A stretch of DNA of 64,000 bases from an uncultured Porphyromonadaceae bacterium. Lineage in GTDB: Bacteria; Bacteroidota; Bacteroidia; Bacteroidales; Muribaculaceae. Where the stretch lies: contig CAMWRW010000001.1 of NCBI GenBank assembly GCA_947176755.1, forward strand, positions 1 through 64,000, in the 5' to 3' direction. Shown in pieces: positions 7,425 to 13,115 of the stretch. The stretch's first letter is position 1; every line of letters starts with the position of its first letter. The position numbers and the translations under genes are program-made. The notes beneath the pieces are model-generated. The model had not been told where the DNA came from and did not search any database. It saw only the letters and a list, made by a program, of their open reading frames with translations.

Positions 7425-8297
7425 CTATGGGAAAATCTCAATAGAAGGGTGCTGAAAGCTTTGGAAAATGCCGCGATTCATATAGGACTTTTCGCTAAAG
7501 CATTTTCGCCATTGGCTAAAGTCGGCATTGCTTTTAAGAAGAATTGAGATATAATACGAAAGAGAGCCATATATTTTTCCGCTTGGAGCTTTGTACTCAA
7601 TGTTGCGTTCGTTTTCCTGACATGCTGTAACAACTGTGAGAATTGCTCCTTTAGTAAATTCTTTTGGCGACTTGACGGTTATTCGCCCCGGAGGAGTAAA
7701 AGCATAATTAGTTCCACGAACATATCTGATAAGTTCGGGATCAATATCGGTCATTTCATCCTTCTGAATACCCTTGCTGTAACAAGCATCTACGGCGACA
7801 AAAAGCTCACCATCATTTCCCAACTTTCGCTTAATGGCATCAAGCAACGGACACAACTCATCATCAATCAGATGATATTGACCCGAGTAAGTACCATTCA
7901 TTTTACGACTGTCTCGGCACGCATCGTAAGGAATAATCGACTCATCATATTTTTTCAATGCCCCCTCATCATGATTATCATCACGAATTGGTTGCCCATG
8001 CCCTGAAAAATGGAAATACACCCTATCCCCCTCTTGACTTCTTTCTGCAAGCTGAATCAGAGCTTCTACAATTCTTGCTTTTGTTGCCTGTTCATTTATC
8101 AAAGTAGTAATATCGCCAAATCCTCTCTTCTTAAGCAAGGGTCGGAGTAACGCCACATCATTATCACCATGTAAGACATTCCAGCCTGTTTTCATCCGGT
8201 CGTATTTGCCGATGCCAACAAGCAACGCGCGATTAGTTGCCAACCCCGTCAAAACTGAGACTGACAACAGAAAGGTCACTATAAGGCGTTTAATCAT
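7425..8297 (-). CDS. exported metacaspase-like (peptidase C14) protein
   Basis: Signal peptide MIKRLIVTFLLSVSVLTGLA, then 'RALLVGIGKYD', 'VYFHFSGHGQ' (His) and 'LFVAVDACYSKG' (Cys). Start at 8297 overlaps the upstream stop (TAATG). Confidence 0.88.
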   Translation of the reverse strand: MIKRLIVTFLLSVSVLTGLATNRALLVGIGKYDRMKTGWNVLHGDNDVALLRPLLKKRGFGDITTLINEQATKARIVEALIQLAERSQEGDRVYFHFSGHGQPIRDDNHDEGALKKYDESIIPYDACRDSRKMNGTYSGQYHLIDDELCPLLDAIKRKLGNDGELFVAVDACYSKGIQKDEMTDIDPELIRYVRGTNYAFTPPGRITVKSPKEFTKGAILTVVTACQENERNIEYKAPSGKIYGSLSYYISILLKSNADFSQWRKCFSEKSYMNRGIFQSFQHPSIEIFP

Positions 8298-8938
8298 TAT
8301 TTCAACTGGTTTAGTATCTTCTGGCATTGAGCAACAAATTCTTCATCATCAGCAAAGCGAATTGACATCGCTATCAACATCTCTTTAGCTTTTTTTCGGT
8401 CATGGATCTTCAAGTAAGCCATTGCGAGACGCATTCCGGCATCTTCTTGAGCTTGTATGTCATCTGACGGGGCCATTTTGTAAGCTCGTTCAAGGGTTGG
8501 AATATCATCCGAAGTTATTGACTCCCAACCTCGGGTTGAATCCGGGATATAGTTATAAGCTACGATCGTATTGTCAAGTTGGTTCAGACCTGCCTGACGG
8601 ACATTGTAAACGGAGAATATTCCCAGAATAAGAATCGCAGCAATAGAAGCGCCCCATGCCATTCTCTCGCGGAGATGACTCAGGCGAAAAACACGAGGTT
8701 TCGAACTCCGCCCTATAATGCTCAGGAGCTCGTCCTTGGAGATATTCTTCATAGCATGACCGAACTCGATATTCTCCTGTTCGGCCTCCTGACATATCCC
8801 CCTTAGTGTAAAAAGATACACACGAAAGTCAGTTGCAAAACTTTTATCAGAGCGTAATTTATCATCGAAAGACAACTTCTCCTCAATACTTAGGTCATCA
8901 TTAATATATCGCTCAAAAAGTTCTATGTTATTTTCCAT
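8297..8938 (-). CDS. single-pass membrane anti-sigma-factor-like protein
   Basis: Overlaps the 3' end of the sigma gene. N-terminal 'LFERYINDDLSIEEKLSFDDKLRSDKSFATDF', one TM 'MAWGASIAAILILGIFSV', C-terminal extracytoplasmic helical region. No obvious zinc (HxxxCxxC) motif. Confidence 0.7.
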   Translation of the reverse strand: MENNIELFERYINDDLSIEEKLSFDDKLRSDKSFATDFRVYLFTLRGICQEAEQENIEFGHAMKNISKDELLSIIGRSSKPRVFRLSHLRERMAWGASIAAILILGIFSVYNVRQAGLNQLDNTIVAYNYIPDSTRGWESITSDDIPTLERAYKMAPSDDIQAQEDAGMRLAMAYLKIHDRKKAKEMLIAMSIRFADDEEFVAQCQKILNQLK

Positions 8939-12600: not shown

Positions 12601-13115
12601 AGGGAATCTGACCACTCGAACTTAATCGGTGTATACCAACTGTTTTTATCCTTCTTAGTCTTTAACTTTCCCTTTTCAGTCAGAGAGGTTGAAGCATTCA
12701 GTCCGATTGAGGAATAGTTGAAAAAGTAAGAGAAGAATCCGGGAGGCATAGACGACTCCGCGAATTGTTCACTAAATTTCTTTGCTTTCTTAAAATCGTG
12801 TTTTACAAACTCGTAATAAGATAAGGCGTAGGCAGTGTTTAAGAAATGACTTACAGTATCGCGACGGATTATCTTCGTAGGAAAACTCTTAATTCTGCTT
12901 TCAATATGTTTCCGAGCCTCTTTCGTCAGTTTATAGTCAGGTTGAACAAACTCAACCATTTCAATAATGAGACTGTCCCGATGAGAAATAATCTCCTTTT
13001 TAGCTTCCGGCTTATGGAAGTTCATAGAATGGCCGAAACCGTGGAATCCGACAAGGAACACCACGGCAACTACTATCTGCGTTAAAAAACAGCGATGTAT
13101 TTCTGCCAATTTCAT
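9603..13115 (-). CDS. exported TPR-CHAT domain protease
   Basis: N-terminal signal/TM segment, TPR-rich middle, C-terminal CHAT domain with '[12 protein letters not shown]' (His) and '[30 protein letters not shown]' (Cys). Confidence 0.93.
   Translation of the reverse strand: [1170 protein letters not shown]

Follow-up and report, generated by a model that had tools for sequence, protein, structure and literature searches.

A conserved Bacteroidales operon in which an exported metacaspase may free an ECF sigma factor from its membrane anti-sigma factor

The window, a stretch of 64,000 nucleotides from a Bacteroidales assembly of 97 contigs, carries at positions 7425–13115 a cassette of four genes for a TPR-CHAT protein, an ECF-type sigma factor, a membrane anti-sigma-like protein and a metacaspase. 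Comparison of gene neighbourhoods indicates that this cassette is a conserved Bacteroidales system. From the features of its proteins we consider it probable that the exported metacaspase serves the ECF sigma/anti-sigma pair as its site-1 protease, with a site-2 protease completing the release of the sigma factor. The nearest named relatives are metagenome-assembled genomes labelled Muribaculaceae, Porphyromonadaceae or Bacteroidales.

All four genes lie on the minus strand in the transcriptional order TPR-CHAT (9603..13115, 1170 aa), sigma (8928..9587, 219 aa), anti-sigma-like protein (8297..8938, 213 aa) and metacaspase (7425..8297, 290 aa), which is the order proposed in the first-pass annotation of this DNA. 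The open reading frame coordinates also bear out the 11-nucleotide overlap of sigma and anti-sigma described there (8928–8938) and the TAATG junction of the anti-sigma stop and the caspase start, where the caspase ATG at 8297 leads into MIKRLIVTFLLSVSVLTGLA. Genes for a 124-aa TM protein, a lipoprotein, a Sel1-repeat protein and a trypsin-like protease (13140..16634, minus strand) run straight into the CHAT gene on the same strand, and a third type of protease may therefore be co-transcribed; these upstream genes probably share a transcript with the cassette in the window, and they lie outside the conserved core. On the other side, orf175 (6874..7401, minus strand) encodes a non-exported protein with no Pfam or NCBIfam match, and only in the clade of the window does it adjoin the caspase. 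At lower coordinates lie genes for a vWA protein (5957–6787), an exported protein that combines TPRs with a retropepsin-like aspartic protease domain (3672–5795) and a fusion of DUF1810 to an ADP-ribosylglycohydrolase (2309–3550). Retropepsin-like TPR and vWA proteins also occur close to divergent loci of caspase, sigma and anti-sigma genes in relatives (L048, L049 and L056). In L038 a DUF1810-like reading frame is found close to the module, and in L163 one of similar appearance lies beside the caspase. A search of a defence library returned generic caspase-, trypsin- and Sel1-type matches only.

Scanning 84,980 species genomes yielded 80 named caspase loci; all four genes are present in 43 of them, and the trio of caspase, sigma and anti-sigma in 11 others. 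A sigma match was obtained in 32 of 150 relatives, and the surroundings of these were annotated by profiles built from the family. Of the 51 caspases flanked by at least 3 kb on either side, 39 were found to have sigma and anti-sigma genes within 7 kb on the same strand. The gene order in the window's genus is CHAT–sigma–anti-sigma–caspase, caspase–CHAT–sigma–anti-sigma, CHAT–caspase–sigma–anti-sigma or divergent, and the partners occur together even where the sigma factor is only ~30% identical. The usual order in other families is caspase, sigma, anti-sigma, CHAT. Sigma and anti-sigma are directly adjacent, with a median gap of 5 nucleotides (76 cases). As the clustering recurs across families with the genes rearranged, it is not a product of chance. 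The distribution is patchy (a caspase at E <= 1e-20 in 43 of 393 genomes of the order), which suggests an accessory system. Beyond the order, related caspases are for the most part either long fusions or stand-alone proteins, and at the level of the phylum most related caspases have no sigma gene nearby. Besides metagenome-assembled genomes, the carriers include the cultured gut strains Parabacteroides distasonis An897, Bacteroides sp. 224 and Leyella stercorea An906. A search of open PMC papers, without subscription papers and preprints, found no description of the operon.

The sigma factor has regions 2 and 4, as expected of an ECF factor, and lacks the domains of primary sigma factors. Its own matches are weak (Sigma70_r2, E = 0.012; NCBIfam TIGR02985, E = 5.5e-9, which is under the curated cut-off of that model), and among 24 relatives Sigma70_r2 is matched by ten and region 4 models by three. 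A search of the genome for a close paralogue of the sigma factor found none. The protein contains just two cysteines, C144 and C189; neither varies among 24 relatives (32% mean column identity), and they may have a redox or metal-related function in region 4.

The 213-aa protein encoded directly downstream of the sigma gene has no significant Pfam or NCBIfam match by itself; 14 of 40 relatives match the NCBIfam 'anti-sigma factor' model NF052375. It consists of a cytoplasmic helical N-domain, a single TM (residues ~94–112; 8603..8659, minus strand) with a positively charged N side, a flexible linker and an extracytoplasmic bundle that is TPR-like in the AlphaFold model, in agreement with the one TM and extracytoplasmic helical domain that had been read from the DNA at first. 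Lys and Arg are more numerous before the TM than after it in all 62 of 62 distinct modules, which places the N-terminus inside and the C-terminus outside. An N-in membrane protein with a cytoplasmic N-domain, encoded next to the sigma gene, is what an ECF pair calls for. A fold search with the N-domain gave no confident match.

The metacaspase matches Pfam Peptidase_C14 (E = 3.6e-15) and has a caspase fold of the metacaspase type (matches to 3bij, AtMC9 and TbMCA2); the caspase search found one match in the genome. The catalytic residues H100 (7998–8000) and C172 (7782–7784) are both conserved in the relatives. Signal peptides had been suggested for both proteases of the cassette, and signal-peptide-like N-termini were indeed found by inspection and a hydropathy scan (not SignalP), for the caspase in nearly all copies. 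In one clade of relatives the caspase has, in addition to the signal peptide, a C-terminal TM followed by an RKRKK tail, which independently locates the caspase domain outside the cytoplasm.

The TPR-CHAT protein of the window is the sole CHAT protein of the genome and matches Pfam CHAT (PF12770, E = 1.7e-39). Its catalytic pair is H1004 (codon 10104–10106) and C1085 (codon 9861–9863), kept in 73 and 74 of 76 CHAT proteins, respectively. Like the window protein, which has a signal-peptide-like segment at the N-terminus by the same inspection and hydropathy scan, its relatives mostly begin with a signal peptide; one clade has an N-terminal hydrophobic stretch, possibly one or two TMs, and the side of the membrane is uncertain for that clade. 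The TPR regions are variable, as is typical of sensors.

The part of the anti-sigma ectodomain that is modelled with the least certainty is a loop at residues 130–142 (pLDDT ~62), between the TM helix and the confident TPR-like bundle. Within it sits R136-G137 (codons 8528..8533, minus strand), the proposed site-1 cleavage site with Arg as P1. Aligned within the genus, all intact anti-sigmas have in the ectodomain linker a basic residue that precedes Gly, Asp or Ser. An alignment of 40 members with a mean identity of 23% shows R136 to be near-invariant. Other families, outside the set in which the motif was noticed, have YRGG, FRGG, SRGE, SRGD and TRDG. An RG pair is found 8–36 residues past the TM in 55 of 70 anti-sigmas (median distance of 25 residues); the sequences are related and such raw counts overstate independence, so the fairer figure is that for diverged low-identity clusters, of which 20 of 25 have the pair compared with a mean of 1.3 and a maximum of 5 for shuffled tails (500 shuffles). 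The wider pattern [RK][GDS] is present in 24 of the 25 clusters versus 11.2 expected from shuffling. Of 38 single-TM control proteins from the same loci, six have RG, and two of these six are missed anti-sigmas. Short tails (~35–50 residues) without the TPR domain keep the pair (MRGED in L153, VRGEE in L156 and MRGGD in L179). The exceptions either have no Arg (QMGGSE in L169 and L188, SHGGDD in L207) or have R-A (L192 and L205). Co-variation between the caspase loop and the anti-sigma site was sought in these exceptions and none was found, with the caspase Arg-Gly unchanged in L169, L188 and L192.

From this pattern of conservation R136-G137 is a candidate site-1 cleavage site; alternatively, it could be a binding motif. 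One form of the latter would be a pseudosubstrate that keeps the metacaspase inactive, in which case the output would be release of the caspase (for envelope self-digestion or defence) and the sigma factor would set expression only. A conserved Arg-Gly is as compatible with binding as with cutting, and caspases are described as common in conflict systems in passages of PMC8195603. However, the linker is modelled as flexible, the short-tail anti-sigmas retain little but the Arg-Gly, and a single-TM protein that tethers a sigma factor would be an odd inhibitor; we consider the pseudosubstrate role quite unlikely. The conserved operon, the N-in, C-out anti-sigma, the exported and intact proteases and the near-invariant Arg-Gly together lend strong comparative support to the broader proposal of the first-pass annotation, that proteolysis of the anti-sigma frees the sigma factor.

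Arg-Gly linkers were also observed in proteins of other kinds. Caspases without a sigma gene nearby adjoin exported lipoprotein-like proteins (L162 9135–9848, L180 10895–11581, L195 10965–11654 and L168 11354–12025) that have a Thr/Ser-Arg-Gly linker followed by a common C-terminal domain, and these are possible alternative substrates. In L191 a one-TM protein without a cytoplasmic domain (6673–7143) has SSSRGVG past the TM and lies beside CHAT and caspase genes, with no sigma gene.

Which of the two exported proteases would make the cut had been left between the CHAT protein and the caspase, and here the comparison points to the metacaspase. RG is retained in the anti-sigmas of loci with no CHAT gene nearby (L140, L143, L147, L152, L156, L158 and L161), absence being judged within each fetched locus, so that these genomes may have a CHAT gene at another position. 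Correlations of pairwise distances, which include shared ancestry and are inflated by relatedness, are 0.91 for sigma and anti-sigma, 0.84 for sigma and caspase and 0.86 for anti-sigma and caspase; those of CHAT or its parts with the partners are 0.41–0.63 (0.53 for the CHAT catalytic domain and sigma). Non-metazoan C14 proteases cleave after Arg or Lys (PMC5756287). We favour the metacaspase over the CHAT protein as the cutter because of this P1 preference, the retention of the site without CHAT and the stronger co-variation of the caspase.

The converse arrangement, in which the anti-sigma would be cleaved by the TPR-CHAT protein, much as Csx30 is by Csx29, and the metacaspase would act downstream as an effector under sigma control, appears to us quite unlikely. 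The CHAT protein is intact, exported and present in most loci, and CHAT proteases belong to clan CD, in which some relatives, such as separase, prefer Arg at P1. Type III-E CRISPR provides a precedent (PMC10028731). Nevertheless, loci that lack a CHAT gene close by still have the Arg-Gly, the co-variation of CHAT with sigma and anti-sigma is weak, and CHAT is replaced or missing at loci that retain the caspase. The evidence suggests that the role left to the CHAT protein is that of a sensor, an activator or a second protease.

The metacaspase has an Arg-Gly of its own, 22 residues past the catalytic Cys (of 98 sequences, 93 have the Arg and 96 the Gly), that is kept also in caspases without a sigma gene. 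In the window this is R194-G195 (codons 7713..7718, minus strand), a candidate self-processing site by its position in the region where caspases are processed; it lies in a confidently modelled region and could have a structural role. A conserved inter-domain Arg-Gly could also be cut by another protease, and two exported clan CD proteases adjoin in the cassette, one of them with variable TPR regions. These features would suit a cascade in which the TPR-CHAT protein, having sensed the signal, activates the metacaspase and the metacaspase then cuts the anti-sigma. This is a variant of our preferred model and not its opposite, and the probabilities of the two overlap. The remaining genes persist in loci without a nearby CHAT gene, though, and self-processing explains the Arg-Gly in both proteins equally well, and we regard the cascade as possible rather than probable. 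An apoptosis-like clan CD cascade in the bacterial envelope, running from TPR-CHAT through the metacaspase and a cut of the anti-sigma after Arg to transcription, is put forward here equally tentatively.

The mechanism that we infer with the metacaspase as site-1 protease takes in sigma binding, the signal, the CHAT role, the cut and the protease that makes it, site-2 cleavage and the regulon. At rest, the N-in, C-out anti-sigma would hold the sigma factor at the membrane through its cytoplasmic N-domain. A signal in the envelope would lead to activation of the metacaspase, perhaps by self-cutting at R194-G195; the exported TPR-CHAT protein, the TPR-like outer domain of the anti-sigma or both may read this signal. 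The active enzyme would then cleave the anti-sigma past Arg136, at a point of the flexible linker ~25 residues away from the membrane on its outer side, and a site-2 protease such as RseP would remove the stub and so free the sigma factor. The genome has one gene for an M50 site-2 protease, which makes such an enzyme available; we infer its role in the cassette. In some clades the freed sigma factor would probably turn on its own operon.

Evidence bearing on this last step comes from upstream elements. AAGGTAAC is enriched upstream of the operons (7 of 59 versus 0.2 expected), in one clade only. The caspase operons of one clade have AAAAGGTAAC-N(10-16)-TTTTT: AAAAGGTAAC and then a T run lie upstream of the caspase in L098, L141, L144, L145, L146, L154 and L173, with the strict spacing failing in L145. 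When seven genomes were scanned with the longer pattern, the caspase operon was the only intergenic match; the other sites examined fall within genes or abut them, and no operon begins downstream of these sites. As the AAAAGGTAAC element is intergenic only at the caspase operon, self-regulation is hinted at in one clade. No equivalent upstream element was established for the window. Such an element is also what would be seen if the sigma/anti-sigma pair merely regulated the expression of the two exported proteases, as ECF factors often autoregulate, with an unrelated protease releasing the anti-sigma and the Arg-Gly being structural. We consider this unlikely: it offers no account of why a single Arg-Gly should outlast all other ectodomain sequence, or of why the pair also occurs in tails made up of a loop only and in some partner proteins from loci without a sigma gene.

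Two known systems were considered as homes for the cassette and rejected. A scan of window positions 1–20000 found no direct repeats of at least 22 nucleotides within 120 nucleotides, hence no CRISPR array next to the CHAT gene, in line with the 'without CRISPR' of the first reading; Pfam and NCBIfam scans of ten neighbouring proteins name no gRAMP/Cas7-11, the Cas7-11 model not being among those searched. With the repeat array absent and CHAT most likely not the conserved cutter, a relative of type III-E CRISPR was rejected. An EACC caspase system was likewise rejected, as the 290-aa protein is a caspase domain only and scores 28.8 bits against NF047832 versus the EACC1-caspase cut-off of 140. 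The cassette does resemble caspase-EACC2 in that genes for caspase-fold proteases stand beside an ECF sigma gene (Kaur et al., 2021; PMC8195603); the passages of that paper on caspase-EACC2, which comes with a DUF1822 TPR protein, describe neither a membrane anti-sigma nor an exported protease.

With metacaspases and orthocaspases (MaOC1; GSU0716, PDB entry 3bij), the enzyme of the window shares the C14 fold, the His-Cys dyad, an expected preference for Arg or Lys at P1 and possible self-processing. It differs in that its sequence predicts export to the envelope and a link to a transcription switch. To our knowledge, the function and the substrates of bacterial metacaspases are largely open, and the operon offers a specific and conserved candidate substrate and site for one metacaspase family. 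If the reading is correct, a bacterial caspase-type enzyme would have a natural substrate that can be read from the genome, and caspase-type enzymes would be linked to signalling and not to death.

The parallel with the CASP/Craspase of type III-E CRISPR, drawn at the outset, is functional at most. Both place a clan CD protease, a sigma inhibitor and an ECF sigma factor at one locus (Csx29 TPR-CHAT, Csx30 and CASP-sigma; PMC10028731), but the CRISPR system is cytoplasmic and RNA-guided and has CHAT as its protease, whereas here the proteins appear to be exported, the metacaspase would be the core protease, the CHAT protein of the window is most likely no counterpart of the cutter, and the site is conserved; the cleavage site of Csx30 is described as non-conserved in a passage of PMC11106740. 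If our model holds, Csx29–Csx30–sigma would be one instance of a more general logic that pairs a clan CD protease with a sigma inhibitor. There is also a likeness to RseA/DegS/RseP of the Escherichia coli sigma-E pathway, in which an ECF sigma factor is held by a one-TM anti-sigma that receives a first, juxtamembrane extracytoplasmic cut (predicted here) before a site-2 protease acts. The site-1 proteases named in one review, DegS, DegP, SipS/T and Prc, are serine proteases (PMC7593790), whereas the candidate here is an operon-encoded cysteine protease of the metacaspase type, a class that would thereby join the proteases known to start anti-sigma release. On the sequence evidence, then, the cassette is probably a case of regulated proteolysis that is new in the class of protease it uses.
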